DNA of 64,000 bases, taken from Physcia stellaris. Taxonomy: Eukaryota > Ascomycota > Lecanoromycetes > Caliciales > Physciaceae. The position numbers were made by a program, and so were the translations under genes. Below the pieces are notes generated by a model. It ran no database searches, was not told the DNA's origin, and worked only from the letters and a program-made list of their open reading frames with translations. Of the stretch, positions 7,072-49,209 are shown one piece after another (the first letter of the stretch is position 1; the number at the start of each line of letters is the position of its first letter). The stretch spans positions 124,001-188,000 of the forward strand of contig JABSSW010000001.1 of the NCBI GenBank assembly GCA_018902385.1, in the 5' to 3' direction.

Positions 7072-9413
7072 TCAACCACAAGCACTCAAGCCGCTCGGCT
7101 TTACCGCAGTGTCGTCGACCTTCAGCATTTCCCTCCCAATTCCTCGACCCTTGCCCTCCTGTCTGGTGATTTCTTCCACAGCTTTCAAAAGCTCGTACTC
7201 TATCTCTCCCGAAACCACACTGTCGTTTTGGTATTCTTGATGGTTGCGAACAAAGTGTCGTATCCATTTGGCGCCCGTCCATAACTGCCCGGAAGCTCGC
7301 TTTCGAATCAGATCAAGATATCGTGCAAGCTCACACCTGGTCTCCACATCGACGTTTACACTGTTGAGATAGGACTCAACAAGTGGGATCAACCCAGGGA
7401 AGCTTCCCGCGCCTGCTTGACCGTTGATGATTTCATTGATCGTCATGAGGGAGTGTTCGTCTTCCACAGGGCCTGTAGGTGTTGGTGGTCGAGAGACCGG
7501 AGCAGGCGTACAGGTACCGGATGCGCTGCCATTCGTTTTGACAGGCCTCGGAGGCAGTGGATCGTTGCGGAAGTGGAATTTCTGATCCAATACAGCGTCA
7601 CGGATGTGGGCAGTCTCCATATTCTGGGTCGTCAATGGTATGGGAATGTAGAAATTGAGGTCGAAGCTGAGGATCGCCCGGGTGACGAGAACAATGAAGA
7701 CTGAGAATGCTGCATTCTCGAAATCAGTGATTTGGATCTCCATGGGTCGGAATTCCACACGCCAGCCCGTATCTTTGTCGGGAGGAGGCGGTTTAAAGCG
7801 CATGTGCTGCCAGTTGGTTGACTGCAGATTTTCGAAATGGTCCGTCTTGGTAAGGTCGAGGGTCTGTAAGTCTTCACCAAAGATGACGATAGGATCCCGT
7901 ATAAAGAGATGTGCGAAATGTGTAGCCAGGAGATCGTCCATTCCACCATCCAGTAGCCGCCGTTTCAACTTTTCGTCAACAACCAGGTCTGGGTCCATGT
8001 ACTCCTTCCGCAAACGACGGTCCTGAGATATGTATGTTGAATTAGAGGCATACCTCGATTTTGGTACTCTCCAACGGTCGTTTTTCAGTGGCTAGGACGC
8101 ATTAGCAAACCACCTCCCAGGACATGGACAAGTCATCGGTATACCTTTTCGCCCAGCTCTTCTGGTGTTCGATCATCGACCGCTCTGCTGATCTGATTCC
8201 ACCGGACGTCCGTATCTGCAAGAAAGCCCTTATAGATAGGAGTAGCAGCGGTCAAGGCCAACATTATAGGGCCAAGCGGACTCAATTGATCATAAAGCCG
8301 TCGACCCTCGGTAATGTTCTTAGCTTGAAATGTAATCTGCAAGCAACAGCTCCCCATCCCAAACGCCATAGCGTCCATGTAAATGTGATCCTCCTTTGCA
8401 GCACCATTCCTCACATCGTCGTCTTCCGGCCACTTGTGTAAGTCATATTCCACAGTAGGGTCGTTGAACGGACGAGATGTGTTTATGTCCTGGAAAATTG
8501 GGACATTTATCTCCACCTTCCGTCCTCTTCGGGACCTAATGTTTGCAGCCAGTGTTGGAAATCTAATGTGCGGATTCGCGATCTCATCCGGCAGAAACTG
8601 CGACCTAAGCCTCTCGCCGGAAGGAGGATAGTAGGGTGTAGTGAAAGTATCTCTTGTACCCAGTCGAGGGAAGGTAGTCAACGTTATAGGATACTCGTTG
8701 GGTTCCATGTGATCGATCGCGATTTCGCGCCTGTAGCACCAAATCAGGCCCCACCCGCCTTAATATAGCGATGGAGCTTTTGACAAACCGCCATTTCATG
8801 TTCGGCTCAACGTCGAGAAGATCTTTGAAACCTATTCCCCATGGCCTTCCCGGTGTTGCTTCCAACATGAAACGGCCAAACTCGGGGTGAAAAATGGGTA
8901 ACGCATCGCCATGGCTGTCGACCGTCAGAACTTTATCTGAGTATTAATTGAGATGCTTCCTACCTGGCAACAGACTGGAGGTCAGGCACGCATCCCCCCT
9001 GCTTGCACAACTCTTCATCTTTTGCGAGTGCATCTAGAATATCGGCTTGCCGTAAAGATAGCTTGGCTTTTTGTGCTCAGTATCGTAAACCACAACTAGG
9101 TATTCGATCTATTGAGTGTCAGACCCTCCCTATACTCTCATGTGACAAATTCTCCGTACTTCATCTCCCCATAACAGTGCATCCCGCTCTTTACCCTTGG
9201 CACGGTTCCAGATAGCGAGCAATTGCTGGAGTCGAATGAGCCATTGCTGGAGGGTAAGTGTAGCGACATTCACACCTCAATTCCCCATTCGCGAACTTGA
9301 TTGGCTTTTTGCTTGGCTTCTGGCCAAGCTAGAGGTGTACCAGTGGCCCTACGAAGTACGAGTTAGCTGTAAGCTATCGTAGCTGGGTGCTATAAGACAT
9401 ACAAAAGTCCCAT
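7072..9413 (-). CDS. GSH1: Glutamate-cysteine ligase catalytic subunit
   Basis: First and rate-limiting enzyme of glutathione synthesis (ATP + Glu + Cys to gamma-glutamylcysteine, cytosol). Seven exons: 9413-9403, 9348-9276, 9225-9160, 9108-8964, 8914-8789, 8730-8145, 8091-7072; introns are 49-58 nt. The start MGLLATGTPLAWPEAK follows an 11-nt first exon. Family landmarks seen are LLWGDEIEY, FHPEFGRFMLEATPG, EPNEYPITLTTFPRLG, CCLQITFQA, and WRVEFRPMEIQITDFENAAF. The assembled product is about 675 residues, normal for eukaryotic GCL. One anomaly: within exon 4 the frame changes between YDTEHKK and AKLSLRQADIL at a run of five T (five A on the coding strand, 9068-9072); one extra A would restore it. 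All other exon phases agree, so an assembly error is likelier than a dead gene. A TTACTAA site lies about 110 nt upstream. Confidence 0.93.
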
Positions 9414-11536
9414 GGTGGAAAGGTCAAGGTGTTGAGATGTTCAGATCCCTAAGAAACTTTACGAGGGCGGACGGACAGATTCTCAAAGACAGCCGATGGC
9501 TTTCGAAGAGTTCACCCCGGATTACTAAACGTCTGACACGGCCATATGAAATCGGTGTGTGGAACGTAAGTATTATGTGACTTTAAGCTAGACTCTGGAA
9601 GTTGAATAAGAGTGTTGATTAGCGCATCCAGAAAATTTCGAAGACACCTTATCCTTGGCTGCGCGACTCGGTGCGCAACAGGACTATGGATAGGATTGGG
9701 CAAAGTATCAATTGGAGACTTTGCTGCCGCTTGCAAAGCCAACGCCTCGTGAACGGCATTGGTGAAAGCCGTCATTCTGGCGCAATAAGAAGATGACGAT
9801 GACCAAGCCGACCGAGGGCGGGAATGACGATTTGTTCTGGCAGCTCTTGGCGCCAAGAGTTGGACAGCAGCAAAGCAAACCTTAGGGCTATCTCAGGGTT
9901 GAACATCCGGCTACCAAATATCTCTCAACTCTAAGTAAGTGTAATTTTACTTAACCCTTCAAATATCAATGTTAGAGAAACGAGGGCGATGTGATGCCAA
10001 TACATATGAGTGATCAAAATGACGAAGAAGTATCCTACTTTTCGGCTTTGACTTCAAACGTCTTCTAGATTGATTATATTTGTACTCTATCAAATCCCTA
10101 TTATAATGTATCAGAGCTCCTTCCAAGGTGTATAGTTACAGCCTCCACGATTGATAATCTTGAAAATTAAATGTCTGGAGACAACAGTGACTGGTCCTCC
10201 GCTTTCTTCGAAACAAGATCTACGAAAATCTTTATGCATGTAGGTTAACGGACTTCAACGACATGTGAAAAAGCCTTCCAGGATCTAAATCGCGCGAGAT
10301 CGACCCTAATAACGGCACAGGACTTGAGAGTCTGCTCTACAATCTGTGAAAACGGCTGGCTAAGACCAAGACAAGGAGAGTCATAGTGGTCATCCAATCT
10401 CACACAAGTGGTAGACCAGAGATTCTACTAGGCTCAAACAGAAAATGTTATGAAGCATTATGAAGCACCCGAAAGTAGAGGTTGTTCAAATCCGTACGAG
10501 TAAAAACGGGCAATAAAACATCGGAATCGATGAACTTATAGCCTGAATGCGACTGTCCAGAATCCGATTCTATCTACAACAGTGGTGATAAAAACTGATG
10601 AGGAACATGATCTGAAAATGCTGACGTGGAAGAAGGCTTCTTTGGAGAAAAGTGCATATTATTGCTAAATAGCGCTACAAAAAGTGGCATTGGAACAAGG
10701 ATCACAATCTACATCTGTAAGAAGACGCCATCCAGAACGTGGGGCAGAATATATGGAATAAGACGGGAGCGTTTTTATCTTAGGAAGCCTAGGTTGGGTA
10801 GCCGTCAGATGACAGTAGCCCCTTCTACTTCCTGTCATGGGGCTTATTGAAGGGACCATCGTCTAAAGCAGAGGTAGATGGTGTGATAGGGGCGGTGGCC
10901 TGAGGCGCATTCGATAGGATGCATAGAGACCCGGGATTCTGATCTGTTCTTTCGAACGAAGCATAGTCGTGAGATATTGACATCGCCAGAATCTTTCTAT
11001 GAAGCTCTCTTTAACGACCTGCTACCTCATAAAGCTTGATGAGTCGATTATTTACAGCAACAGTTTTGCTTGATGCATTCCAGACGAGAGTGAACATGAA
11101 ATGCTCACGATTTCTCGATTTCGAGAGGTGGAATCTCAAACCAAAAGTCACAAGACGCCAGATGCTTGGCACGCGCCTACTAGCGCTTTTGGCATTAGCG
11201 CGCAATCGCGATCGCTGTCGTCTTCAGATCTTGGGCAGCCAGTCAGGGTGTCTGAATCCAGCTTTGCGTACCGAGTACATCATGAAATTTGGTCAGTGAA
11301 TTACGCACGCGAGCACAGCAACATTCAACCGTACCAGTCGTGCATCAGATGAAAAGATTGCCAATGGCTGACCAGAAGCTATGCTCGTGCTGCATGGCTA
11401 GTGTCGACCATCCGAGGCTCTGACGTTGACGGTTGATGCATGGAGAATAATGGAGAATAATGAATGAGAAGCGTCTACTACCTACTCGTAAGACTAGCAC
11501 CTCATCCCAAACATCGTCACCGAAAGAACTCAAGCC
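9414..11536. other. Intergenic stretch without recognisable gene
   Basis: Apart from the GSH1 promoter at its left end, nothing conserved is recognised over 2.1 kb. The longest open frames (9512-9856 minus, 10626-10850 plus, 11036-11299 plus) have no familiar domains and no supporting splice structure. The composition is more A+T-rich than the neighbouring genes, as in old non-coding sequence. No tRNA-like fold or terminal repeats were noticed. Confidence 0.5.
9522..9528. promoter_or_regulatory. Candidate Yap1/AP-1 response element
   Basis: The heptamer TTACTAA lies 109 nt upstream of the GSH1 start codon. This is the preferred site of Yap1-type bZIP oxidative-stress regulators, and GSH1 is a known Yap1 target in budding yeast. 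A single 7-mer can occur by chance, so the support is its position and the identity of the gene. Confidence 0.35.
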
Positions 11537-12323
11537 ATGTCTGAATCCCGAATCCTAATCATCAATCCCAACTCCAACGCCTCAATGACCGACGGCCTCC
11601 ACGCACCCATCGAAGGACTCGGATACAACAACGTATGCCCCCTCCAGCTCCAGCCCCTCAACCCACGAACCCTGACACCACAGCCTCCAGACAACCTACA
11701 CGTACCACACCGCCCCCGCACCCTCACCACCCTCAATCAACAACCTCGCCGACGCCGAGAAATCCTCCGAAGTGACCTTACCCACCGTGCTCCCCCTGAT
11801 CTCCACGCACGACGCCTTCCTCGTAGCCTGCTACTCTCCGCACCCACTCGTCCCTGCCCTCAAAGAACATACCTCGAAGCCCGTGCTTGGGATCTTCGAA
11901 GCCAGCGTCGCAACCGCTATCGCTCTCCTCGGTAATAAAGAGCGTTTCGGGATTGTCTCGACGGGGAAGGTATGGCGTGAGATCTTAGGGAATGCGATGA
12001 GAGAGGAGGTGCTCGGAGCAGAGAAAGCGGAGAAGGTGTTCGCGGGCGTGGAGACGTTGGGCCTCAATGCGGGTGATTTGCACGGCGGAGAGGGAGAAGA
12101 GGATGTGAAGAAGAAGGTGCAGGCTGCCACGGGACGGCTCATTGAAAGTGGCGGAGATGGAGAGGGTAAGGTGAGTGTTGTGGTCCTGGGCTGTGCGGGC
12201 ATGGCGGGGATGGAAGAATGGGTTCGGGAGGAGGTGAAGGAGAGGGGGAAGGATGTCAAGGTTGTGGATGGTGTTAAAGCTGGGGTGGGGATATTGCAAG
12301 GACTTGTGAGGGGGAGATTTTAA
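11537..12323 (+). CDS. Asp/Glu/hydantoin racemase family protein (DCG1-like)
   Basis: Two exons, 11537-11632 and 11691-12323, joined by a 58-nt intron (GTATGC, branch CTGAC, CAG) give 242 residues, the usual length for DCG1. The N-terminus MSESRILIINPNSNASMTDG is the family signature. The two cysteines used by this fold for racemisation are present: the first in VACYSPHP, the second in LGCAGMAGMEEW. The C-terminus ends VVDGVKAGVG, also typical. Budding yeast DCG1 is expressed with allantoin/nitrogen-catabolite genes and bacterial relatives racemise hydantoins, so a role in purine or allantoin breakdown is plausible but unproven. The gene stands alone; no other allantoin-pathway enzyme is next to it, although a nucleobase/allantoin-type permease lies 18 kb away. 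Confidence 0.9.
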
Positions 12324-13258
12324 AGGTGCTTCTGGCAACTAAATCCTCCCGAATATTCCCTTGTACATTATACAAATCAAAAGTCTTTGCCGCTCTTTAG
12401 AACCAAATATCAGCATCAATTCCCGCAGGGCTACATACTCAGCCAATCCACACGACTACAAATCTCCCACCATGCAGCCAGCCCAGAAACAACCAGCCCG
12501 CGTCCCCGGGTATCACGAAGCAGATCGGCAGTCACCCTGTTCGACCCTACGTTGTAGCCAATCTTCCGCTCCCGCAAAGAACCTGATATTCTTCTGCTTT
12601 TTCCCACGATGAACTTCTGAATCTCATGGCCCAGTGCTGTGCAGATACGATGCGCTAGACCTCACACCTAAACTTTCAATGGAACAGAACATAGGAGTGT
12701 GATAAAGTACCGAGTCGTCTCCATCCTAATTTCTCACAAATTGGGGAAATGTAAGATCCCAGCGTATAGAAAAAGGGGTATAACTTGCTACCTACCTACC
12801 TAGGTGTGGGATAAGAGTAAGGTAAGGTGATATGTCTTGATGCTATTGAATCGTGATCGGGAAATACATGACAGAATCCTAAGATGCACAGATTATTTCG
12901 ATTCTGATTGGCTTCGCTGGGTGATCAAAGTCGGACATCTAATGACCAGGAGAAAAGGAGCAGCTCAGACATAAGATGAACGATTGTTCTGGAGCTAATT
13001 AATAGAAAAACTAAGGTGAGATGGTGTAACTTCCTGTTTTGAAGATGTACGCTTAGTATAAATAGAGTATGCGACCCAAAGCTCTAGCACCAACTTCGCT
13101 AGCGTTCCAATACGGGAAGTAGCATCCAAATCCCACCCAGGCCGTCTTCGAGACGTGAAAACTGAGTGCTGACCGCGGAAATGACCGCCTGCGCAGATTC
13201 CGAAATGTGTGTCTCCAAAGATGCCTTCCAGGACCAAAGGCAAATCGTATCAGCGGCC
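12324..13258. other. Convergent intergenic region
   Basis: This lies between the 3' ends of the racemase-like gene and the BRCT-WGR gene. No conserved frame is recognised. A short TACC repeat (about 12790-12803) is the only simple structure noticed. Terminators and 3' UTRs of both genes presumably lie here. Confidence 0.5.
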
Positions 13259-14446
13259 TCATGAGCCCAACCCGAAAAGCTTAGGACGATCATCCGGGTA
13301 TTCACCACTCGTCATCCCCAGCTCCCGCCCAACAACCTGTCTCCAGACGCTCTCCACCGCCACGGCATCACGCTCCGAGATCTTCTCCTCCACCACCCCC
13401 TGAGCCACCCCCTCCCCCGGCGGTCTATACTGATACGCCTCCGGATCGGTGCCCCTAGACTTGAGTCTATCTTCCCACAAAACATGCGTCTTGAGCAAGA
13501 AGAACATCTTGAACGCATTCATCGCCCCTTCAAAGCCCGATCCCGGCGGGGCAAGCACGTCGGCCAAGCGCGCACATCCGGGTTCGGAGTACCGCACGAA
13601 GCAAGCGTAGTACTTGGGAACGGAATGCGATTCGTAGAGCTGGAGACGTTGAGCACGGACATTGATGATGTGCACGCGAGCGCGGTAGAGATGGGGGGGC
13701 CGTGGCATGGGGAATATGGGGGTGCTAAAGAATGATGGTAGAGGGGGAGGGCGCACCTTGAGGTGACAAGCTTTGTTTTTGTTTTCGAGGAGGTTGGCGC
13801 GGACGAGGGTAACGTCGTAGAGGAAGGTAGTGTGATCTCGGTAGATTTGATAACCGTCTGCTGAAGGCTTCAGCTTTATGTGCGCCTTTCCTCTGATGAG
13901 GGTTCGAAGCTGAAAAGGTTATAGAAAGACGTACCTGTGCCCATTACTTCCTTAAATTCTTGGCAGCTACTCTCGAAACGCTTTACTGTCATGCTGATGA
14001 GCTACAGTTCTTTCACCAGGGGATTAGGCGACTTACAGCCTTTCTTTATGTTCTGCCTCCGCTGCTGCTTCTTCTCTCTGCGGTTCTTGACTGCTTCTGC
14101 CCTCCGAGGTTTCATAAGGTATGACGCTTCAGGCTGAGGTCTTCGAAGCATCAGCGAGTCCTCGAGCCAATCGTAACTGACAATGGCTATGGAGGATATG
14201 CGTCTCGCTTGAAGCACTACCACAGATGTTAAAGGCTTGCATCAAATGCGCAGCACAAGATGTACCCAGAGGTGCCTCGTCCTTGTAGTCCTCTTTACTG
14301 CATATGAGATGCGTAACATCTTCGGAAATCGTGCGGACGAAGTTCCCTCCGTTCTTCTCTGTCCACTGCTTCAATTTATCATGAGTGCGGACTCCTCCGA
14401 AATCGCCAGTGACCGCGATGGTAAGTTGCCGAAGAGGATACTTCAT
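13259..14446 (-). CDS. BRCT and WGR-like domain protein
   Basis: Five exons: 14446-14266, 14216-14037, 13985-13935, 13857-13757, 13639-13259; about 297 residues. Residues 5-85 form a BRCT domain: LTIAVTGDFG, a central GGNF, VTHLICSKED, and the closing IVSYDWLEDSLM with its conserved Trp. A Lys/Arg-rich linker follows. Residues about 120-230 resemble the WGR domain of poly(ADP-ribose) polymerases (FVRYSEPGCAR, then an A..AFK.FF..KT...WEDR pattern), but the WGR triplet itself is not conserved and no catalytic PARP domain follows. Related BRCT-plus-WGR proteins occur across Pezizomycotina; a nuclear role in DNA-break sensing or repair is inferred from the domains. The exon at 13857 has a tandem TTCAGCAG acceptor, giving products that differ by one Ala. 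A 5' extension through another intron cannot be excluded. Confidence 0.8.
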
Positions 14447-15172
14447 CTTCCCCGAGTCGTGGATGTAACTAGCTATCAGCCAAGTAACCCAGCTTTGTTG
14501 ACCGAGCTAGTCAAAGCAGTGAGGCCGGTGGTTGTCCTCAGAGACCACACCGGCTTTGTGAAGCTATGTGACCATGTCGGATGATCTTGACTTCAACTCC
14601 CTGGCGCAATTTTACAATACAGTTGAAAGATGCAGCGACCCGAAAAGCCCAAGGGACAAGTGAGGTGATGAGCTGAAGCACTCTTGATGTTTTCTGTGAT
14701 CTCCCTTGGAGATAAATGGAACGTCAGCAGCTTTCGGAAACCTCCTTCTGATTCGCGGGAGAGAGAGACGATGATTCCTGGTGACACACGTGTAAGCGAC
14801 CAGATAAAAATGAGTGGACCATGGCACCAGAAACAATCGACCATGGACTAGATGGCTTACCCGTGCAGGCTGTCTCTTATACTGTGCTTGATGAGTGAAA
14901 AATCAAAGGCTGTGACTCACCTGGTGAATATGGATCAGAAGTAAAGCCTGCAATTACTTCCTGGATACATATGATGTGACCGCATCAACAAGCCTCAAGT
15001 CAATATTCAAGTGCGTAGACACAAGCCCAAGAAATGCTAGACGTGAAGAGCAATCGAGGATTGCAACTCGGTAATCTTACTGTGAATTGAGCCGATATAG
15101 CTAGCAAATAGATACTTTTGACATACTAGCTAAGAATAGAGGCGTAACCTTCAAAGATCAGGCCTGACCAGT
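14447..15172. other. Intergenic region, nothing recognised
   Basis: About 0.7 kb between the start of the BRCT-WGR gene and the 3' end of TRP1, both on the minus strand. No conserved reading frame or RNA fold is recognised; it must hold the BRCT-WGR promoter and the TRP1 terminator. Confidence 0.45.
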
Positions 15173-17606
15173 TCATGTTGCACTTTTAGCAGCAGTTATG
15201 AACTGTCTGATCTTTTCTAAGCTCTGCACACCATCTTCTTCGACCCCACTGCTAACGTCAACTGATATGACTCTGAAATGGCGGCCTTGGACTTGTTGAA
15301 TGGACTCTCTCACATTCTCGGGAGTGAGTCCGCCAGCAAGAATAATCCGCAACCCATGGTCTGCTTCAAGTCGTCTCCGGACGGCGGTAAGATCTTGCTT
15401 TTCGCCTGTTCCACCAGCAGCTGAATCCATCAACGGCAATGCGTGGTATCCTCTTTTAGTGAGTCCTTTGTCTTGAGGACCGAACCGGCGGATTACCGGG
15501 ACTGGAATCAACGAAGCCCATTCAAGCGGCTCGGACCCGTGAAGTTGCACGACATCAAGATCGACTGACTTGCATTTCTCCAAAATGTAACCGAGGGGCT
15601 GATTTTGGAATACACCAACAAGAAGTGCTCGACTGTTGTTCCTAAAGAATGCCGATTTGTGCGCAAAATAATCGGTAGCCTCTAGATTAGCTGTTGATTC
15701 ATTTTCAGGCCCCTTTCCACGCATAGGCCTTGTTGTCTCATGTACCACCTTGGATATGGCCTGGGCGGTTTCTGAATTGACACAACGCTTCCGGCCTTCT
15801 ACCAGAATTATTCCTATGAGATCAGCACCAGCTTCGATAGCTGCTTTAGCGGCATCCGGAGTCCTCGTTCCACAGATCTTGACTAAGACCTCGCTTTTTG
15901 GTGGCCAGTGGATACTTGGGGTGACCCCAGAAGTCTCTCAGCAAAATCCTTAGTGTTCTTGGCGCGCATCAAAGCTTCACCAACAAGTACGGCGTCTACT
16001 CCGCTCTTCTTGTACGCTTCGACGTCTTCTGGACCGGAGATTCCGCTCAGTGCGGCGATGATCATGTTGTCGGTTTTCATGTTCATCAACCGCGTAGTTG
16101 TGTCAAGATCTACCTCGAAATTGGTCAGATTGCGGTTATTTACTCCAATAACGCAAGCCCCTAATTTTGTTGCAATGGTCATTTCTGGGATGTTATTTAC
16201 TTCAACTAGAGGCTCCATTCCTAGTTGACGAGAGTAATCGTACAGCCGCTGTAGCTGGCTTTCCTCTAGCATCTTAACGATTAAGAGTACCGTATCAGCA
16301 CCTGCAAGTCGAGCCTCAAGTATCTGATCTGTACTTTTGTCAATACGCGCATTCGGCTGCAAGCCATTTTGGAAGGTATTTCTTACATTCATCGAAGATG
16401 AACTCTATGTCCGATTAGCGTTATAGACAAAAAGGGGCTGGTCATTTACACACCTTTCCGTAAAACAGCGGGTCGATTAGGCATGCCTTCAAGACTTTGC
16501 CGAACCATACGAAGGTCTTCGATGCTGCCTTTGAACCACTCAGGCTCAGTCAGTACGGAAATAACGTCAGCACCAGCTACTGCGTATTCTCTCGCCTGAG
16601 CCGGAGCGCAACTATCCAACGCAATTATTCCTTTACTTGGAGACGCACGCTTCACCTCCGCCATCAAACTCAAAGAATAGCGGGATGATCTTAGTCTTTG
16701 AGGAAAAGAAATCTGTGGAGGTGCAAGATCCAAATTCAAGGCTGCCTGTAGGTCATTGAATCTATAAGAGGGTACCAACTTCTGTGCGTCTACTGCAAGT
16801 TTTCTGTGACGGTAAATAGTCTCCAGTATTGATTCTTGCTTGGAGGATTGGGACGTGGTTTCAGACTGCTTGTCAGCCCCATCCACTTGAGTCGTTCCGT
16901 TTACATGACTGGACTGTTGAGACTTGTTGTTTTCAGCCCAGGTTCCTCCTTTCATCTGAAGGAAGTTCTTAAGCATAGATCTTCCTTCAGCCGTCAGTAT
17001 ACTCTCGGGATGGAACTGTAACCCCTCCACAAGTAGCTCCTTGTGCCGTACACCCATGATAATGCCTTGAGAGCCTTCGGTCTTGCCTGCAATCCACGAC
17101 GATACTTCTAGACAGCTGGGTAGGCTGGTGTGTGTACCCGCTAGAGAATGGTATCGTGTGACGGGAATATTCTGCGCCAGTCCTGCATAAATACCTTTTC
17201 CGTCATGGATTAGCTCCGAGGTTTTACCATGCAGGATTTGGCCCGTGACTTCAACCTTTCCTCCGAAAACCGAAAAGATGCATTGCTCTCCCATACAGAC
17301 TCCCAACACGGGTATCTTGCCAGCAAAATGCCGGATTGCTTCGGAGCTGATTCCTGCATCGGTCTCTGGGTGGCCAGGTCCTGGGCTGATCACCAGTTGA
17401 GTTGGGTCAATTGCCACTAACTCGTCAATGGTGATTTGGTCGTTGCGATGGACAATGACTGTGGCACCCTCAAGATGTAGATATTGATACACATTCCATG
17501 TGAATGAGTCATAATTGTCTATCAAGACAAGCCTTGAGGCGCTGGCAAGCCGTGGAGCTGCTTCAGGCTGTTGAGGAGAGTGATCCACAAGCGATGAGGA
17601 ATTCAT
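15173..17606 (-). CDS. trpC: Trifunctional tryptophan biosynthesis protein (GATase-IGPS-PRAI)
   Basis: Fused enzyme of tryptophan synthesis in filamentous ascomycetes (also called trp-1). Exons 17606-16454, 16404-16387 and 16328-15173 give about 775 residues. Residues 25-230 are the class I glutamine amidotransferase of anthranilate synthase ([17 protein letters not shown], nucleophile Cys in [12 protein letters not shown]). Residues 285-550 are indole-glycerol-phosphate synthase ([32 protein letters not shown]). The rest is phosphoribosylanthranilate isomerase ([20 protein letters not shown]). The middle exon is only 18 nt and encodes EFIFDE. The start [14 protein letters not shown] matches relatives; the frame stays open upstream to an ATG at 17735. 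One anomaly: frame changes between STGHQK and EVLVKICGT at a run of five T (15895-15899); one extra base would restore it. No splice signal explains it, so an assembly error is likely. Confidence 0.93.
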
Positions 17607-17904
17607 CACATCGAGCATTATGAATGTGTACTTGTGATTGACCTCGCATGGCTGAGAATTGTAGGTTTGAATGCCATAGGGCGTTCCGGAATACTCCGTC
17701 GTAGCGCACGGAACCCTCGGGCCGTCAAATTTCACTAGAACTAGGGTTAGGACTCAAGCATAGTGTGGAACGTCGCGTCGCCCAAAGTCAGACAGAGCGA
17801 AACTACGATAGTAAAACAGCATCAATTCACGATATTTTACTGTATGGATCTTCACCCTCAATCGCTCCCCGTGTCTTTGCCTGTTCGGCTCCTAGGGAAG
17901 CCCA
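17607..17904. promoter_or_regulatory. Divergent promoter region of trpC and NUP188
   Basis: Only 298 nt separate the proposed start codons of the two outward-facing genes, so both promoters and both 5' UTRs share this segment. No perfect Cpc1/Gcn4 site (TGACTCA) is seen in it; the closest match, GGACTCA near 17750, has one mismatch. Confidence 0.5.
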
Positions 17905-34828: not shown

Positions 34829-34888
34829 AACATCAACCCCCCCCTCCCCCTCCCCTTCCCCCAACCAAAAAAAAAAAAAAAAAAAAAA
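34829..34888. repeat. Polypyrimidine block and A22 homopolymer
   Basis: A C-rich block with CCCCT units (about 34829-34866) runs straight into 22 consecutive A (34867-34888). The long run shows that the assembly does not simply truncate all homopolymers. It could be a slipped A-tract or the tail of an inserted retroposed sequence; no target-site duplication was recognised. Confidence 0.8.
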
Positions 34889-35676: not shown

Positions 35677-35985
35677 AAAAAAAATCAGAAAAGGAAAAAA
35701 GAAAAGAGAGAAGAAGAAGAAAACGTCAAAGACTCGATATGAAAATTCAAACGCAAACCCCTTCAAGAAAAATTAAAACAAAATTTCCCAATGGATTGTA
35801 CGATAGGTAGGAGAATGATAAGGCTGACTCTTGGATATATCTTCATCTCCCTTATGTACGTCCTCTTCCCTTTGAAAACCGGTTTCCTATACAGCGCGCT
35901 CGGGGGGGAAGCTCAAACCCCACCTCTATCTCCTGCGCTGGTCGTTGATTTGAGTGTAATGCTCGATCTTTCCACCCCACCACCA

Positions 35986-38413
35986 TCAAAGACGAAACTC
36001 TGCCCCGACTCCGCTCCTGACCCAACAGCGCTCAGACCACATCCATCTCCTGTCCTGGCCGTTGATTAAGGTGTAATGCTCGTCATCTACCTCGTCGTCC
36101 ACCACATTCCCCGCCTCCAACCCCGCGCCCATCATCCTGTTCCTCCAATCCGCCATTCGGGCTTTGAGTCTTGCTGGCGCGTTGGTGTTTGTGTTGGTAC
36201 TGATGGAGGAAGAGGAGAAATAGGAGAGGTGTTTGCAGAAGCCGATGGTGCGGTCGAAGGAAATGAGGGTTATTGCTTGTCTGTTTGGGGTTTGAGTATT
36301 GATCTTAGGAATGTCGGCGCAATCACGACATTGCGGTTGGAGGAAATATTTCAAGGCTGAATCTACTCAAGAGAGAAAATGAAGATCAGGGAGGACAAGA
36401 AGAGATGATTCTGGGAGGAAATGAAGATGATGTAGGAGGGAAATGAAGAAGAATGAAAGAAAGGAGATATTTCGAGAACTCACCCCAGCGACCCGAACGT
36501 GCCTCCACCCATGATCACAATACTTCTCTCATCCGCAACAGCTTTGATCCCGGGATCCGGCCCATCCGCACCAGATGGATTAAGCACTATCAGTCGCTAG
36601 AGTCAGCATTCCAATCCCATGACGCGGTACTTTGCAAGGGCATATAGCGTCGCCCTTGTCAAACGAGAAGTTCAATGGACATACCCTCCCTCAGCACCCC
36701 ATCCGCATCAGCCGGAGGCCACACCACCGTCTCACGATTAATAAACGCTAATTCGGAGTCCTCTATCACCATATTACTCGCCTTGTCCCACAAGGGGGCC
36801 GGAGCAGCTGAGTGTCCGGATCGACAGGCCACGCGAGATAGCGCGAGGAGATACGGAGGCTGATATGCGGGCTCCCGCTGGCCTGAATGAGATCTAGAGA
36901 GCTGGCGGCGCTGGGGATGTAGGTGCGGTATTTGTGTGCGCTTGGCAACGCTGCTGGGAGATGGGGTGGGGGGTGGGGTTCGAGGTGGTAGCGGCAGGGG
37001 ATGCGGATTGGTGGCTATTAGGACGGTGGATATCAGCTTCGAGGTCTGTAGATAGATTGCTGAATTGGGTTTTCTTTTGGGTATTTATAGGGGTATAGGA
37101 GGGAGGGGCTTACCTCCTCGAAGTTGGGCTTGTCGTCTTTGGTGAGGGTCCTGGCGAGCACGTCGTTTGCTGGTGTATTGTTGATATCCGTAGAATTCGG
37201 TACCGCGATCACGGCCCCTGCCGCCGGATCATAACACCCCACGACATTATCTTCTCTATCACCGAACTCTAGAGGCTGGAAGTAGAAAGTCCGAGCCGAT
37301 TGACTGCTGTTTTCGAGCCACTCCCGCCGCGCTTCAATGATAGTTACAACACCCGTCTTCTCATCCCTGCGCAGGCTGAGATCCGTGAAATCATCCCTAA
37401 TCGGCCCTTCTCGGTGCTGCCGCCGCCATACCCGTCTATGCTGAATTCTATCAGGCTCGGACAAGTTGATACGCCAGCAATGATAGTACGACGTCCAATC
37501 GACCTCCTCGACCTCGAACGTCGACTGGTTAGAAACCGCGTACAGGTGCCCGTCGAATATCTCGAACGCAACTGTTTGCCCAACGTCGATGCCGAAGAAA
37601 TCGCGCAGTTGGATAGGGTGTGACCAAAACGCCCCGGAAGAGCATCCAGGCCGCTCGATGAATCGGATTTGCCATTCATGCCGACTTAGTCCGCGCTGAG
37701 GCCAGAAAGTCCCCGTGTAGGTGGCAACGACTATGTGAGTACCGTCGTTTCTGACGAGAAGTTGGCGGGTGTTCCAAGGGATTATCTGTACAAGAGGGCC
37801 ATCGCAAGGGCGGACAACGGCCGTTTCGACGGCGATGACGAGGTGGGTCCGGATGCCTTGGGGTGGATGTTGCGTGAAGCGTAAAGTTACCAGGTCATTG
37901 CTGTGGTAAAGGATCTCGGTCCCAATCGTCTGACCAGGGTTATTGATCTGATTGTTCAGGATCGCGGTGTCGATGACTTGTTCGCGGAGAGGATTACACA
38001 AAACATCCAGGATCCTTACATATCGGCCAGATAAATAACAAAGATAGCCAGCTCTGTATGCGAGAGAACTGCCATAGCCAATGTTCACCACCGAAGAGGG
38101 CTTTCCCAGAGCAAAGGCCTGTTTACGCAGAAAAGCATTCACAACGGCATTTGAGTAATGGAGATCGTTATTCGCCGTATCCTCTGCTTCAAACGAGTAT
38201 GGGATGTGCTGCTGGATTCTATGTTAATATGAATCTCGATTGGTGAAATGGGTAAGTAACCTCGGTCATGAGCTCACATAAGCCTTCATCTTTCAGGAGA
38301 TTACGCAATGGCTTGCTTACGCAGCGAAGGCTCATGCAATCTTCAAAGTTCAGAAGAAGCACAAGATGTACTAATAATTCTGGAGGTAGCGCTTCGAGCC
38401 TGGAGACTGTCAT
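35986..38413 (-). CDS. F-box protein with long C-terminal region
   Basis: Exons 38413-38261, 38211-37114, 37014-36685, 36586-36484 and 36280-35986 give about 659 residues. The N-terminus MTVSRLEALPPELLVHLVLL is an F-box that would bind Skp1 in an SCF ubiquitin ligase. The rest is the conserved body of a family seen widely in filamentous ascomycetes: KPSSVVNIGYGSS, HSNDLVTLRFTQHPPQG, EVEEVDWTSYYHCWRI, RRIWRRQH-type RRVWRRQHREGPI, and LARTLTKDDKPNFEE. No leucine-rich repeats or WD repeats are apparent, so the substrate side is unknown. The first acceptor is a CAGCAG tandem. One anomaly: in exon 3 the frame changes from LLRPP to LWDKASNMVIEDSELAF at a run of five G (36794-36798); one more base restores it. 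The last intron (203 nt) is the weakest junction. Confidence 0.82.
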
Positions 38414-39505
38414 GACTTTAATTGTTACTGGATTCTAATGATGCTGGTAAACAGCTTTAATGGGAAAATATATGCACTCAAATGGATTCCATAAGAGCTC
38501 AACTACCAGGAGAGTATAATATAAAGGTGCGATATCACTCCAAATTTAGCTAGTCCAAAAAAACGCACGAGAAGAGAGATGAGAAGGAGGGACCCGGACT
38601 GAGTGGATGCCAGTCTAACGTGAAATTCATGAACAGGGAGATGACATGGGGGAACATCTGAAAGTCAGATGATGACTACTGGGACAAAGATGACATAGTG
38701 GGAGGTAATGGAAGTGCAGAGCCTCCAATTGAGTAGTCCAAGGCTGAGGTGACCCATTGAGGACCATCTAAAGATGAGATACTGGAGGGATGCATTAGAG
38801 CCTGTGGTGTATCACAAGCATCTTTTAGAGGATGATTAATGCACGGAGCTACAGCGGGATGGTAGTACCGCTGCAGCCACATGTTTGAAAGCTCTGGATG
38901 TGGGTGATGGAGGGAGGTGGTGGACGATGGGAGAAAGATGCGACGACGATTGTGCGGCTCTGCTCCCACTCGACTCTGCCAAGACCGTCGGAGGAGGCGA
39001 AGTTGCATTTGCTGCGCCTTTCCATGAGGCTCAAAAGCTCGTACAATTGACCAGCCGATTCCATTCAATCACCTCTCCTTTCGTCAATTCTTGCGATGTG
39101 CAAGTGTGGTTGCACCTATGATGCACATACGGCACACACCCAGTTCCTTCATCATCCTATCCTCCCTGCTGGCACGCCAGATCGAGACTCCCATCGGAAT
39201 GCTGAGGCTCTGCTGAACCTTCCACTGTCCCTTCACCTGCGCTTTGACACTCTCACCATACTGCGAGTCGATTGCCCTGCCATGTGTTGCGCGACTAATT
39301 GGTAGCCTTGCACCGTGAATCGTCGTGGAACGACCTTCTGTGCGTCAATTACTCATCTACGAATCAATTCATGTCCCCCAAATCAGATCTATATCCAATC
39401 ATGCCCATCCACGCCATGCTCGTACTTTTCTATCTATTCAAAAGCCACCTTCCCCTCCAATTAATCCGAATTCGTCAGAACCTTCGATTCACACCCACCG
39501 CGCGA
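38414..39505. other. Intergenic region, nothing recognised
   Basis: About 1.1 kb holding the F-box gene promoter on its left and the IDO 3' end on its right. Several short frames exist but none resembles a known protein or shows splice structure. Confidence 0.45.
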
Positions 39506-41035: not shown

Positions 41036-41905
41036 GCCGCTGATGAGAATTCTGAAGAAGGGATGGCTGTAAGAAAAATGACTTGCTGTGTTCTATAAGT
41101 AGTAACAATTCATAAAGTTTTGGAGAGAATAAATGACGACAGCGTTGTGGCAATTCAAGCAATTGATGTTGTAGGCTTGGTCGACCACAATGGAGATGAA
41201 ACAGCCGTAATAGAAAATCAGCCCGATCGCAATGGGCAACAGCCACGTAATATAATAATGTGAAGAAGAAATAGATCTGAATTGGTCAAGAAGAGGACCT
41301 TGACTCGCAGAATCGCATGAGTGTTGGGAGTAAGATATGGAGTTTTCCGCCCGCTATCTCATTTATTAATCAGCCTGGTCAGTCATCAAGTCTGGGCAGC
41401 AACCATGCACATGAGCGATCACGGCGCGTCAGGCCGGTCGGATCTGTCTTCCAAATGATTACCAGGAAAAGGAAACAATGAACTTTCCATTCGAGCTCAT
41501 AGCGTTCCGCAAAGAAAGGAAGACAAGGACGTTGAGGAAGAAGCTTCCGACCGAGACCGGCGGAGGGAAACCCGACTCCGGGTAAAGGGAGTATGACGAA
41601 AACTCAAGGCAGCTGCTAGATCGCTCATGATGAGCTGGTCTTGGCTGCGTATTCCCCATCGTTGCAGATCAAGGTGTTGTAAGGGAATTGCTGTACGCTG
41701 AAGAGATGCGCCAAAACGAATCCCTTGATGCAGGGGGAAAATGTGCGCATTTGGCTTTCATCGCCGCTCACGTGACCAACATTTAGGAACTGCCTCTAAA
41801 AATGTCTTGAGTAATCTCTACTGTCTAGCATTCGACTTGAACCATTGATTCCTGCTAGTGTATGCTATGTTGATGTTGGTAAAAAGAGCAGATTTGTGCC
41901 TCTTA
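41036..41905. other. Intergenic region, nothing recognised
   Basis: About 0.87 kb between the IDO start and the NFS1 stop, both on the minus strand. It must hold the IDO promoter and the NFS1 terminator. No conserved frame or RNA gene is recognised. Confidence 0.45.
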
Positions 41906-43502
41906 TCAGTGCTGGCTCCACTCAATAGTGTTCAAGTCCACGCCTTCCTGCACCAGCTCCCACAGTGGACTCAGCTCCCTCAAGAAACTAACTCTCTCAG
42001 TAACCGCTTTGAGCACATAATCAATCTCGCTTTCCGTCGTGAACCTCCCAATACCAAACCTAATGCTGCTGTGTGCGCTTTCATCGCTGTTCCCCAACGC
42101 TCTCAAAACGTAGCTCGGTTCAAGCGACGCTGATGTGCATGCGCTGCCTGAAGATAGAGCAATGTCCTTGAGCGCCATCAATAACGATTCACCCTCCACG
42201 TATGCAAACGAAACATTCACACAGCCAGGGTAAAAGCGTGTGGGATCGCCGTTCTGCGATGTGTGTTCCAGAGCCAGCAGGCCTTTCAGCAATCGATCTG
42301 ATAAGGCTTTGATCCGTCGAGTGTCGTACTGCCACAAAATTCAGTATTTGAACCTCACTAAACCACTAAAAGACTCACAGCCATCTCCTCCTTAGCTATC
42401 CGGCAAGCCTCGCCGAACCCTACTACCAACGGTGGCGCCAGAGTTCCGCTCCTCAGACCTCTCTCCTGGCCTCCGCCACTTATGATAGGATCAAGTCTGA
42501 CCCTTGGCCTTCGTCGTACGTAGCAAGCTCCGATCCCTTTTGGCCCATAGATCTTGTGGGCCGAAATCGACATCAAGTCCACGTTCCACTTATTGACGTC
42601 AATTGGCATTTTGCCAACGGCTTGCGCTCCGTCGGTGTGGAAGAAGACCTTTTGGATCTGCAAAGCTTTCCGATCTCTTCCATCGGTTGGATGACTCCGA
42701 TTTCATTGTTAACTGTCATGACGCTGACAAGCGCAGTGTCTGGTCGGATCGCAGCTTCCAGCTCTTGCATATCAATGAGACCGCTATTCTTGACTGGTAA
42801 GTATGTGACATCAAAGCCTTCGTCTTGAAGATGCCTTGCGCTGTCTAACACACACTTATGCTCCGTCTGAGTTGTGATTATATGCTTCTTCTTCCCAGAC
42901 CGACCAAAAAACCTAGCGACGCCTTTCAAGCTCATATTGTTACTCTCTGTTGCGCCGCTTGTAAAGATAATTTCCTTCGGATCGGCTCCGATCAAACTCG
43001 CGACATGCTCTCGAGCCTGTTCTGCAGCCTTATCTGTTTCCCATCCATAAGCGTGCGTCCGTGAGTGCGGATTTCCATAGAGGCCTGTAAGAAAAGGAAG
43101 CATGGCATCAAGAACGCGAGGATCTGTAGGCGTTGTGGCCTGCATATCTAGGTATATTGGCCGCATTCCTTGGTCCATTACTGTTGCTTGCTTCAGGATG
43201 CCAGCAGCTGGGCTCATCATCGCGTCTGCTGACATGCCCGTGCCAGGCATGATGGCTTCTTCTGGTAAAAGACCAGTTTGTGAAGTGAAGGCATGCTGAT
43301 CTGCCTTGATCGTGGTATCGACGTTGACCTGTGCTCTGGCGGGCTTCGACTCTGAGACGTAGGATCTTTGGCAAACATGGCCTATGGCCTTTGGTGGCGC
43401 TCGAACCCCGGTAGGAGTTCGAAACAAAGCATTGGAAGGGAAAGGTCGCTTGGTGGTAGCTCTGAGCGCCTGCCTCAGGGCGATAGGTGGTAAGTTCGAC
43501 AT
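41906..43502 (-). CDS. NFS1: Cysteine desulfurase, mitochondrial
   Basis: PLP enzyme that takes sulfur from cysteine for Fe-S cluster assembly on ISU in the mitochondrial matrix, and for tRNA thiolation. Exons 43502-42379 and 42328-41906 give about 515 residues. An Arg/Ser/Ala-rich N-terminus of about 100 residues is a typical presequence. Core landmarks: [48 protein letters not shown], the PLP-binding Lys in [24 protein letters not shown] and the catalytic loop Cys in [14 protein letters not shown]. One anomaly: the frame changes between IGKLCRSK and [12 protein letters not shown] at a run of four T on the plus strand (42650-42653); one extra base restores it. NFS1 is essential, so sequence error is the preferred reading. 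An in-frame ATG further upstream (43616) is less likely. Confidence 0.94.
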
Positions 43503-43977
43503 TTGATTTTCTACAGTATGGAGTAAGTGTAGTGGACGATCCAGGATGAAGATGAGGCGAACTGATAATCTGATAAACCCCGATCGCGGATATCTTGGCG
43601 CGCTAACCGTCAGCAAAAGCCGAAATGCCGGAGACCTTCATGAAAGTCACTATTATTGATTCTTGTGTGAAACGGTGGGCTTCATCTGGTCTGTCAATAC
43701 CGGCAAGAGAGAGACGGGTAACGGCACTAGAATCTGCAACCTAGATTACAACATTGTTTGCCACATGCTCCAACGGTGACGCAAGCATTGCGGCGCGCTG
43801 AAGCCCCACCGCCAAGCTTGGACTGTTTAACTACTGTAGGTAGAGGCGACCACATCCACAGGTCTCCCAGGCTGTGCCTCTTCGAAGAAAGAGCTTGGAA
43901 CGATATCTTTCGAAACTGCTCAAGAGAGGCACAAAGATTAGAGTCCACCACTTTGTCAGATACTGCAGGGCAGCGGG
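43503..43977. promoter_or_regulatory. Divergent promoter region of NFS1 and RVS167
   Basis: 475 nt lie between the two outward-facing start codons and must carry both promoters and 5' UTRs. No specific factor site was recognised. An open frame at 43758-44036 spans the RVS167 start out of register and is not credible. Confidence 0.4.
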
Positions 43978-45692
43978 ATGAGTTTCAAGGGCTTTGGAAA
44001 GGCCGCCGTGCGGGCAAGTCAATAGAAACATCTTGAGGGGAGCTTGGTGCTAAACCACATCTTACATAGGCTCCACAAACCATCAAGCAAAGATTCAATA
44101 TTGTATGCCCAACCGGAGCACATGACAAGCTGGTTTAGTCAAAGGGCACTCCGACATCCGCTGACGACTTGGGCCTCGACAGGGAGAAAATACCAAAGAT
44201 GCTGTCTATATTGATGCCGAAAGAAGATTTGAGGAGCTGGAAAAGGCAAGAGCTTCAAATGTCCCGTTTAAGGGCGAACGCTGACGGGCAATGTTGGCAA
44301 CAGGAGACGAAAAAGCTACATGATGAATCGAAAAAGTGAGTTAGCAACGGACATACTTGCTTGATGGTATGCTGATTTCCATAGATACTTCGATGCCATT
44401 AATGGTCAGACCTTTGTACCAATTCCCGGTTTCCGCCAATTGACCGGCTAGATAGGCATGCTAAACCATCAGATCGAATTCTCAAAGGCCATAGCAGAAA
44501 TATACAAGCCAATCTCTGGCCGGGTCTCAGATCCCGACTCTGTCATACCAGAAGGAAATCCAGAAGGCATTCAAGCCTGCGAGGAGTATGAGAACATCGT
44601 CCGTGAACTCCAGGCCACCCTAACCCCCGAATTGGAGATGATCCAAGCCCGCGTTATTGGCCCAGCAGACGAACTCCTTACTGTCATAAAAATGGTTCAG
44701 AAAGTAACCCTCAAACGCTCCCACAAACAACTGGACTACGACCGCCGCCGAGCCACCCTGAAGAAAATCCAAGACAAAAAAGAAAAGTCCCTCAAGGATG
44801 AAAAAGCCCTCTACAAAGCGGAAAACGAAGTGGAGCAAGCAACACAAGAATTCAACTACTTCAACGACCTCCTCAAAGAAGAACTCCCCCGCCTCTTCGC
44901 CCTCGAACGCGAATTCATCCGCCCCCTCTTCCAATCCTTCTACTACATGCAACTCAACGTCTTCTACACCCTGCACGAAAAGATGCAAAGCATCGACATC
45001 GGCTACTTCGACCTGACCCTGGACATCGAAGACGCCTTCGAGCGCAAACGCGGCGACATCCGCGAAGCGACCGAAGCCCTCGCAATCACCCACTTCAAAA
45101 CCACCGGCGCGAAGAACAAACCCGCGCTCAAATACGGCAGCAACCAGCGGCTCCTCGAAGGCCGCAAATCAACTTCCTCAGCAACCGCTTCCCAACCCTC
45201 GCCATCGAAGGCCCTACCTCCCCAACAACTCGCCAATCCCTCGACTCCGCCCCCTCGCGAAGACAAACGCACGACTTCCTCGAAAACCCGCCGCCGCCCT
45301 ACTCCTCCCCGTTACTGAACGGCGATACATCGATAGCGCGCGCCAACAGCACGGGCAGCCAATGGGGCGCCGCGGCGAAGAAAAAGGGCGCCGCCCCTCC
45401 GCCGCCGAAGCCGAAACCGTCGGGCTTGAGAGGCACGCCGACGAGCCCGGTGCTACCGACCGCGACGGCGCTGTATGATTACGAGGCGCAGGCGGCCGGC
45501 GATCTGAGTTTCGCGACGGGGGACGTGATTGAGGTGACGCAGAAGGGGGCGACGGAGAATGAGTGGTGGACGGGGACGCTGAATGGGAGGCAGGGGCAGT
45601 TTCCCGGTAAGTCTTCCTTGTGAACGAGGTACGGGTTGAGAAAAGAGATTGCTAACTTGTGGCGTGTAGGGAACTATGTAAAGATGAATTGA
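43978..45692 (+). CDS. RVS167: BAR and SH3 domain protein (amphiphysin-like)
   Basis: Membrane-curving protein of endocytosis and actin patches, partner of Rvs161. Exons 43978-44013, 44070-44102, 44183-44246, 44304-44335, 44385-44404, 44456-45606 and 45670-45692 give about 452 residues. N-terminus [20 protein letters not shown], then BAR helices ([51 protein letters not shown]). A Pro/Ser/Ala linker leads to the SH3 domain: [31 protein letters not shown]. Two introns, at 44014 and 44247, start with GC (GCAAGT, GCAAGA) rather than GT. Two frame breaks: one surplus A in a run of four (44220-44223, between YIDAE and RRFEELEK) and one missing base near 45166-45168, between LLEGRK and the linker that leads to SH3. 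The second position is less certain because the linker is poorly conserved. Confidence 0.92.
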
Positions 45693-45907
45693 GAAAGAGT
45701 ATTGTTGACGTATCTGTGGTTTTTAGCGGCATCCCTTGTGCTGAGTGTGTTCGAGGGTTTGAGGAGAGGGGAGGGAGTTAAAGCTGGAGGTGCTTTACCT
45801 TTACTGTTCATTCAATACCTAGAACAAATATACTCTATTTGGACACTCGGCTCCTCCTCGATCCATAGAAGTGCAACGCCGCATGACCATGCTCAGAAAC
45901 CACAAAT

Positions 45908-47919
45908 CTACCCACGCGCACGCCCAATATCCCCTTCACCCATCCCGCAACAACAATCATCTATACCACCCCTCTCCCCCGCCGCACCAGCACCTCCCAT
46001 CCCCCATCCCTCCCCCACCCCCTCAACCACCAACCCCAACCCCCTCGCAATCTTCCTCCCAAGCACCAAAAACCCAAACTCCTCCCTCGCCAACGCCCTC
46101 GTCTGCCTCGCCCAAACCTCCCCACCCACCCTCCCGCGATCAAGACACCGTCCCAAAAACGCCCTCGAGTCCCTCACCGCGCGCTCCTCGCAAACAACCT
46201 CATAAAGCTGTCCCTCGACCCTCGTCGGCGCGACCAGCACCGCGTCGATATCCGGCACGGCGCGGGTTTTCGCGTCCGCGAGCACGGCGTCCGCGGACGC
46301 GGTGGAGGAGTGCAGGATCTGTTCGTTGCTGGTTAGGAGGCTGGAGAGGGCTTCCAGGGAGCTGATCTCTGAGTTGATGCTTGTGAGGGTGCTGGAGAGG
46401 GCGCGGTGTTGGGCGAGCAGCGCGGGCAGGGCGGTGCTGTTTGAGGTGTGCATTTCGGTGGCGAGGGTGGTGAGGGTGCTGGAGAGGTGGGAGAGGAGAG
46501 CGTCTTTTTGGGGTTTGGCGGGATTGGTGGGGCGGGGACTGTGGATTGGGGGTTGTTGGTGGGAGGGGGTGTCGAAGGGGGAGGTGAGGAGGTCGGTTGG
46601 GGGTGGTTTCTTTGGCTGGGAGGTCGGAGGGGGAGGCTGGGTTTGGGATTGCGGCGGGTATCTCTCATTCGAGCTTTGAAACTGCGAATTGTGTGAGGGT
46701 TGTTGGTAGTAGTGATTGTTGAAAGGCTGCTGAGGTGGTTGGCGTGGGAATTGATGCTGGTTTGAACCTAATGGTGGATCTCCGTTTGGCAGTGGGGCCA
46801 GTCGTTGGTTGACGTATTGAGGTGGTGATATTCGGGGTTCGCCATGAGGAACTGGTCCAGGATGCCCGTCACCGATATCAAATCTGGGGCTTTGCTGCAT
46901 CAACGACGGGTTTCGAAATTCCGAGGGTTCTGGGCCGAAGCCGTGTCTGAGGCTACTAGTCCTTTGCGGAGCACTCGATGGTATTGGAGGTGGCGGTTTG
47001 CCGTAGATGCTTGATAATCGATCTCTTCCTGCCCCAGCAGCATCTTTATCCTGTTGTGGACGTGGCGGTACTGGTGGCGGGCCGTCCCCACCTTGGTATA
47101 TCGACGACTGAGAGGTCCCTTCATATTCTTTTGGAGGGGTGGTGGTGGCCCGTAACCTGTAGAAGTACCTGAACCAGACCTGTCCATCTCCGGTGGTAAC
47201 GGGGGGACAGGTGGGGGCCCTCCGTTGGTTTGGCGCGGAGAAGGTAATGGAGGTGGTTCGTGTTTTGCAATCAGAGGCGGCTCCCGAGAGAAAATCTCTT
47301 GAATTATCGACACAAATTGAAGCAGATTGGATCTCTAGACAAGTCACCATTAGCCTATCATTTCGTCGAAGGACAACGGAAGCTCCGAACGCCCCTATTC
47401 CTTCATGCTTCTGAGCTCAACCTTCTTGAAAATACTCACATCATCTCTCCACCCAGCCAAATACGGGTGGTATATCCTACCTTCTCCGCTCACATATTGA
47501 CCAGCTCTAACGACCATATTCTTTGTTGGGGTTGCGAAGCCCATAGGGACATCTCTCGGGTATTCGTGAGGGATCCATAGCGATATGGGGAACATGTACG
47601 TCGTACCACGGAAGGAGGTAGGTAAAGTGCCTGAAAGATTCAACAGAAGGGATGGCCGGCCATTCTCGTAAGCTTGATGCAATCAGCGCGGGCATCGATG
47701 CGATTTGGATATTGAGCGAGGCGGCGGCATACTGTACACGCTGGTGCGGACTGAAAGGCTGGGGTATTGTGCAAGGGTTTGAGCAACGTCCGAATATGTT
47801 CGATCAGGGTCATGATATTCCTGCAAAGTTTAGCACATGTTCTCAAGGTGTTCGGCGAAGTCTACCCCTTTCAGGACATTGTACATCCAGTTGAGCACTT
47901 TCTGAGGAACGGCGGCCAT
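45908..47919 (-). CDS. VPS23: ESCRT-I subunit VPS23 (TSG101 homologue)
   Basis: Binds ubiquitinated cargo and Vps27 at endosomes and starts multivesicular-body sorting. Exons 47919-47866, 47820-47733, 47672-47440 and 47334-45908 give about 600 residues. The UEV domain spans residues 1-150: MAAVPQKVLNWMYNVLKG, YHDPDRTYSDVAQTLAQYPS, LLLNLSGTLPTSFRGTTY, FPISLWIPHEYP, IYHPYLAGW; as in all Vps23 the ubiquitin-conjugase cysteine is absent. A 200-residue Pro/Gln-rich linker follows, then a coiled-coil stalk and the C-terminal steadiness box (DIDAVLVAP, QLYEVVCEERAV, ALAREEFGFLVLGRKIARGL). One anomaly: the frame changes in the proline linker between TGYGPPPP and PKEYEGTS at a run of four G on the plus strand (47136-47139); one more base restores it. 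The final exon acceptor is CTAG at 47335. Confidence 0.92.
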
Positions 47920-48183
47920 GGTGATAGCTAGTGTGTAGCAAGAGCGAGGAGGATGAGAATGTTATTGGGCCATGGAACTATCGCTGAGCTTCGGCCGGAA
48001 ATAGGATGCTCTTGCAGAAGCTGTTACGTGTTGATGGTATTGCTGTGGATGGGATTCATCGAATCCGATTCGAGCGATGACGCGGAGGACCCTCGAGCCT
48101 TGGTGCACATGGCATCAATTGAATTGTTCACCCTGAATCCCGCCACTCTCAAGCTTACTAAATTCAAGACTTTGGTATCAATC
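47920..48183. promoter_or_regulatory. Compact divergent promoter of VPS23 and EFM7-like gene
   Basis: Only 264 nt separate the two start codons. The plus-strand frame is open from 47953 into the methyltransferase, but the start at 48184 (MSEVSSDEDHLPVDLFQEP) is where family similarity begins, so the upstream part is taken as promoter and leader. Confidence 0.4.
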
Positions 48184-49209
48184 ATGTCAGAGGTATCCTC
48201 AGACGAGGATCATCTTCCCGTTGATCTATTTCAAGAACCTCCCAACTACTTCCCACCTCCTCCACCCCATACCTTCACTTCCTACACTCTAGCATCCGGT
48301 CAAATCCTGAACCTCCGCCTGGTCGGGCACAATCCGCTGTGGGTATATCGATCTTTCACCATATCGCCCTTTCCTTCTCGAGAATGCGAATGAACGCCCT
48401 ATTGCCGTTGATCTGCCTACTAAGCTCAGACAGGGTCACCATGTCTGGAACGCCGCTCACTCCATCTCCGCCTACCTACAAACCCCCTCCAACGCCGCAC
48501 GACTGATCCACTCCAAAACAACCCTCGAGCTCGGCGCCGGAGCAGGTCTTCCAAGTCTAGTCGCAACGACCCTCGGCGCCCAACGCGTGGTGATTACAGA
48601 CTACCCCGACGCAGACCTCGTCGACAACATCCGCTGGAACGTGGACAACTGCTCTGCACTCACGCCTCCGCAGCGCTCAGCCATCGCAGTAGAGGGCCAT
48701 GCATTCGGGGCACCCCCGAGCCCCTACTGGCGCATCTGAGTGAAAAGCCGGACCACCGGAAAGCGGGATTCGATACCCTGATTCTGGCCGATTTGCTCTT
48801 CAACCACCACTGCCACGCGCAATTGGTTTCCACCATCCAGCGCACCCTAGCGCCCACGCCATCGGCTCGGGCGCTGGTCTTCTTCTCGCCGTACCGTCCG
48901 TGGCTTCTCGGTGCTGATCTGGCCTTCTTCACCTTGGCTGAGGAGGGGGGGTTGGCGGTGGAGAAGATAGGCGAGGAAGTGACGGAGAAAGTCATGTTTC
49001 GCGACGATCCGGGGGTGAGTGCTTCTTCCTACGGGAGGGTCAGGACGAGGATTCAGGATCACGGCTTTGAGGTTGGTGGCACTTGCCGACTCGCGAGTTG
49101 GTGATTTGGACTGGTTGCTGACGTTGAGAGTACTTTGCAGGATGAGAAACTGCGGCGAACTATCTTCATGTATGAACTTAGATGGAAAGAAGGGACAATG
49201 GGGATATAG
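48184..49209 (+). CDS. EFM7: Protein N-terminal/lysine methyltransferase, EFM7 type
   Basis: SAM-dependent seven-beta-strand methyltransferase; the budding yeast member modifies the N-terminus and Lys3 of elongation factor 1A (formerly named NNT1). Exons 48184-48342, 48434-49014 and 49141-49209 give about 269 residues. Features in order: acidic start MSEVSSDEDHLPVDLFQEP, FTSYTLASGQILNLRLVGHN, PLW, then HHVWNAAHS, the SAM-binding LELGAGAGLPSLVA, acidic strand-2 motif VVITDYPDADLVDNI, DTLILADLLFNHHCHAQLV, and the terminal RRTIFMYELRWKEG. One anomaly: the frame changes between EGHAFGAP and PEPLLAHLSEKP at a run of five C (48713-48717); one extra C restores it. Homology is by family pattern, so a closely related methyltransferase of other specificity is possible. 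Confidence 0.87.

Follow-up and report, generated by a model that had tools for sequence, protein, structure and literature searches.

Net one-base frame switches, most of them at or near short homopolymer runs, in seven Physcia stellaris genes, very probably residual length errors of the assembly

The window, meaning the whole stretch of 64,000 nucleotides analysed here, is taken from contig C1 (bases 124001-188000) of a genome assembly of 43,974,083 bases (43.97 Mb) and 147 contigs, probably that of a filamentous fungus to judge by its genes and spliceosomal introns. The genes claimed to be broken were read by eye in three frames and their pieces compared with Pfam; parts of some other genes were read as well. 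A coding model that allows for frameshifts, with the window and fetched loci as its training set, was run at penalties of -11, -9, -7.5 and -6.5. Frame-switching introns of 35-159 nt were sought within each interval open in both frames, and their signal scores were set against 257 model introns (5th percentile 3.9), a partly circular yardstick since these had been chosen by the model with the same signal scores.

Seven frame switches were found in seven genes, one net switch per gene, and in each the net effect is that the assembly is one base short. An earlier note had counted eight breaks in the same seven genes, one of which called for the removal of a base and the other seven for an added base. 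The genes are as listed there, but the breaks number seven, two of them explicable by a weak intron; the net loss of one base extends to all seven, and no case needing one base fewer was found. Five switches are firm: GSH1, trpC, NFS1, EFM7 and, as a net change, RVS167. In their searched intervals no frame-switching intron of 35-159 nt scores above 2.2, against the threshold of 3.9. Those in VPS23 and the F-box gene are not firm, frame-switching introns scoring 5.4 and 5.2 being available to them.

GSH1, the glutamate-cysteine ligase gene (7072..9414, minus strand; Pfam GCS), changes frame at a run of five A on the gene's strand, at 9068-9072. Read in two frames, its N-terminal part aligns through the switch with residues 1-330 of yeast 3ig5; the sequence at the switch is itself weakly conserved. 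A single glutamate-cysteine ligase copy is expected in a fungal genome. Judged by match coordinates alone, a second GSH1 copy lies at G000:C1:1270006-1270888, with a best piece 59% identical and another piece, 44% identical, that runs over the switch position uninterrupted by a stop. Because of this second copy, stop-free at that place, loss of the window GSH1 alone would be tolerable. The trpC gene (15173..17735, minus strand), a glutamine amidotransferase-IGPS-PRAI fusion, switches between its IGPS and PRAI parts, whose Pfam matches fall in different frames; the interval includes a run of five A at 15895-15899. The PRAI part was aligned from its first strand on and the IGPS tail was unaligned. 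The coding model calls its shift some 40 nt away from this run, at 15937. A second break apparent near 16.4 kb at first look reads as two ordinary introns.

NFS1, encoding cysteine desulfurase (41906..43637, minus strand), has its Pfam Aminotran_5 pieces in different frames, with the switch at a run of four A at 42650-42653. Placed end to end, the pieces align to residues 2-406 of 5wkp, and the alignment is free of gaps at the switch. The sole NFS1 copy found in the genome is the broken one. Here the coding model placed a false intron or, at -6.5, two shifts with opposite labels. In the EFM7-like lysine methyltransferase gene (approximately 48034..49101, plus strand; Methyltransf_16) the switch lies at a run of five C at 48713-48717, and the pieces, once joined, can be aligned across it with 3bzb. 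In GSH1, NFS1 and EFM7 alike, alignment to solved proteins continues through the switch.

RVS167 (44199..45692 for the exons traced, plus strand) encodes a BAR domain in one frame and an SH3 domain in another, according to Pfam, with one net switch in the linker, somewhere between 45130 and 45315. The coding model calls a single shift, at 45305. Two breaks had been claimed in this gene. A second was looked for by eye and not found: the 5' exons join by a GC-AG intron and the last exon by a normal one. The apparent GC-AG intron joining the 5' exons, read by eye, occupies window positions 44246-44303 and has the donor GCAAGA.

The VPS23 gene (approximately 45912..47916, minus strand) has its UEV and Vps23_core domains in different frames, and changes frame in the proline-rich linker either at a run of four C (47136-47139) or through a weak candidate intron of 41 nt with a signal of 5.4. 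In the gene called an F-box gene in the earlier note (approximately 36480..38410, minus strand), a probable switch lies at a run of five C at 36794-36798, with candidate frame-switching introns of 47 nt (signal 5.2) and 44 nt as a weak alternative. The scores of 5.4 and 5.2 lie between the 10th and 25th percentiles of the 257 model introns. The coding-model shift in the F-box gene, at 36789, appears only at a penalty of -7.5 and looser. Homology is unable to decide this case, because the pieces have no Pfam match and no paralogue was found for the one piece tested. An apparent opposite-sense switch near 37.0 kb in the same gene vanishes with an alternative splice acceptor.

The placement of the breaks within well conserved exons, as first described, holds for NFS1 and EFM7 and fails for GSH1, trpC, RVS167 and VPS23, where the switches fall in weakly conserved stretches or linkers. 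Among the genes said to be unbroken, the permease and IDO genes run in frame through their introns in the parts read, and the start of KTI12 reads as an ordinary intron. Another possible frame switch, absent from the earlier list, lies near 14.58 kb (window 14460-14670) in a short unnamed gene and is called at the loosest penalty only.

Runs of four or five identical bases are present in six of the seven switch intervals (A5, A5, C5, A4, C4 and C5, those at NFS1 and VPS23 being only four long), which bears out for these six the association with runs of three to five bases claimed previously; the RVS167 switch can be located only to its linker. Intervals hold a longest run of unusual length both at the four homology-placed sites GSH1, trpC, NFS1 and EFM7 (Fisher p = 0.009) and at eight sites, namely six in the window together with the invertase and CCT1 genes described below (p = 0.0001); interval lengths were set by eye, and RVS167, parvulin and the remaining candidates outside the window were excluded because their intervals were too wide or ill-defined. 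A homopolymer therefore lies at or beside the switch more often than expected by chance, as in long-read homopolymer error.

Frame switches also occur in unrelated genes elsewhere in the genome, again as long-read homopolymer error would have it. An invertase gene on contig C17 shows a clear switch at a run of six C and aligns to 9tdv across it. In CCT1, on contig C19, a switch is likely: blocks matching yeast TCP1 lie in different frames on either side of an unconserved insert. A parvulin gene on contig C4 has a probable switch near its start, the frame differing between the start and the Rotamase domain, which are separated by sequence holding a run of six A. None of these three has a fitting intron scoring 3.9 or more, and among seven outside candidates an ordinary intron fits none of six, the seventh being fitted only by one of 37 nt. 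The switches in TAF10, in a methyltransferase gene and in an unnamed gene correspond to one base too many or two too few. Outside the window, 13 calls were made at -9, 11 in random pieces and two at one chaperonin locus. Three are true or likely (invertase, CCT1 and parvulin), two are likely with the other net sense (TAF10 and the methyltransferase), one is false and seven are undecided, all but one of these (L005, position 84) having been read by eye. The false call is in TSR3, where by eye the sequence reads as an intron of 53 nt that has a branch site. Pieces L015, L016 and L021 were also read by eye at -7.5. A hydrolase gene in L016 may change frame at about 4680-4790, inside a short CCAAAT-like tandem repeat.

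The coding model gives no clear enrichment of breaks in the window over 25 random 10-kb pieces, and so lends no clear support to a local hot spot; the window was chosen because breaks had been seen there. Shifts per 10 kb of coding sequence, window against random pieces, were 0.50 and 0.40 at -11, 0.50 and 0.88 at -9, 0.76 and 1.12 at -7.5, and 2.25 and 1.68 at -6.5. The counts at -9 were two calls in the window and 11 in the random pieces (7 losses and 4 gains), while nine chaperonin loci gave two calls, or 0.91 per 10 kb coding. The model is weak, recovering two of the seven window switches at -9 (trpC and RVS167) and three of seven at -7.5 and -6.5. On model-made sequences it made no false call in 170 kb of coding sequence and found 47 of 69 planted losses at -9, 55 of 68 at -7.5 and 66 of 73 at -6.5, a benchmark that is too kind, real data having given at least one false call (TSR3).

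Match coordinates were also surveyed genome-wide for seven conserved families (22,665 profile positions). Junctions between pieces were intron-sized or larger in 39 of 41 cases; the other two, both HSP70-like, look like breaks when judged by match coordinates alone. The likely CCT1 break is counted among the 39, which shows that breaks lying in inserts escape this survey. For kinases (124 of 199 candidates scored), 30 of 31 junctions were intron-sized or larger and one was break-like by coordinates alone. The open frames that hold adenylation domains (14 of 113 candidates scored) reach 4855 aa. From these coordinates, breaks inside conserved domains elsewhere look rare, and on the conserved-family and kinase surveys the window may be worse than the genome average. 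At G000:C8:120373-121250, two HSP70-like pieces overlap one base off the profile expectation, with stops inside one of them, as in a broken or decayed copy.

Run lengths in the assembly are not grossly compressed, as judged from non-coding A/T passage and the long A/T runs. Passage from five to six bases is less frequent than passage from four to five in three of four classes: coding A/T (0.155 vs 0.239), coding C/G (0.167 vs 0.245) and non-coding C/G (0.180 vs 0.241). The exception is non-coding A/T, with 0.407 vs 0.400 and no drop. The drop in coding DNA could reflect natural selection against long runs. Seven A/T runs of at least 14 are present in the non-coding part of the 25 random pieces, and the genome contains open frames of 4855 and 3617 aa. 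Given these frames, the surviving long A/T runs and the predominance of intron-sized or larger junctions in the conserved families, the description of the assembly as unpolished is too strong.

That some of the switches are short or weak introns overlooked by the reader, the genes concerned being intact as assembled, is an unlikely but quite conceivable explanation. Both VPS23 (41 nt, 5.4) and the F-box gene (47 nt, 5.2) offer introns of this kind, and the TSR3 call outside the window turned out to be one. It does not extend to GSH1, trpC, NFS1, EFM7 and RVS167, where no intron in the searched intervals fits; in NFS1 an intron would in addition delete residues aligned to 5wkp. True one-base losses, whether in decaying genes or in a mutator strain losing bases at runs, are improbable. 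Mutators do lose bases at runs, and with a second GSH1 copy (59% identical in its best piece) one of the two could decay. Against decay, no second NFS1 copy was found, and Pfam or solved-protein matches persist on either side of each firm break. As regards features of pseudogenes, each gene has one net switch, copies having been searched for NFS1, GSH1 and one F-box piece only. A mutator is countered by six MutS_V matches free of stops, five covering 163-188 of 188 positions and one covering positions 2-92, a set that does not span the whole repair pathway.

Decoding by one-step ribosomal or transcriptional slippage at the runs would account for the common net sense of all seven window switches and for the runs of four or five in six of the seven intervals, yet it is very improbable. 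Base (A or C), length (4 or 5) and flanks all vary among the six runs, in agreement with the earlier statement that no slippery context is shared, and most conserved-family pieces elsewhere carry no switch. Programmed -1 frameshifting takes place at a shared slippery heptamer, X XXY YYZ; none was found among the six printed switch contexts. Slippage genes in such number are not known from any fungal nucleus. The window switches resemble transcriptional or ribosomal slippage in that the frame moves by one step where a base is repeated. They are unlike it in lacking a common slippery sequence, in involving two different bases and runs no longer than four or five, and in lying in unrelated genes. 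Less credible still is a fungus in whose genes many A and C runs have truly contracted by one base and are read through by polymerase or ribosome slippage.

The best account is the one originally put forward, homopolymer errors of a long-read assembly, and the frame switches are very probably residual length errors at short homopolymers. It is favoured because the longest run exceeds chance expectation, the only NFS1 copy found is broken and matches continue on both sides of the firm switches; the common net sense, the runs of four to five bases and the switches on other contigs agree with it. At runs of roughly four to six, the assembly consensus would lack one base and thereby make an intact gene seem to change frame; the living genome would carry the longer runs. 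The cause would be long reads without full short-read correction. A counterweight to uniform one-base loss is that 4 of the 11 random-piece calls at -9 carry the opposite label.

A parallel is provided by the nanopore-only assembly of Drechmeria coniospora. There, as reported in PMC7500977, most errors lay in homopolymers, counted for runs of four or more, and altered the reading frames of conserved genes; short reads corrected them, and after polishing insertions were commoner than deletions. The same study holds PacBio assemblies to be largely free of the problem. In another ascomycete study, indels in three test genes are reported to have fallen with depth (PMC9453082). The D. coniospora assembly and the present one share the breakage of conserved fungal genes at homopolymers. 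They differ in that insertions were commoner in D. coniospora after polishing and short reads provided the correction (PMC7500977), whereas the switches seen in the window assembly are net losses in all seven genes.

These switches bring nothing new to fungal biology and are very probably not a real feature of the organism. What they carry is a caution on the source assembly, in which claims of pseudogenes or gene loss, as well as gene models, need checking at runs of four or more.
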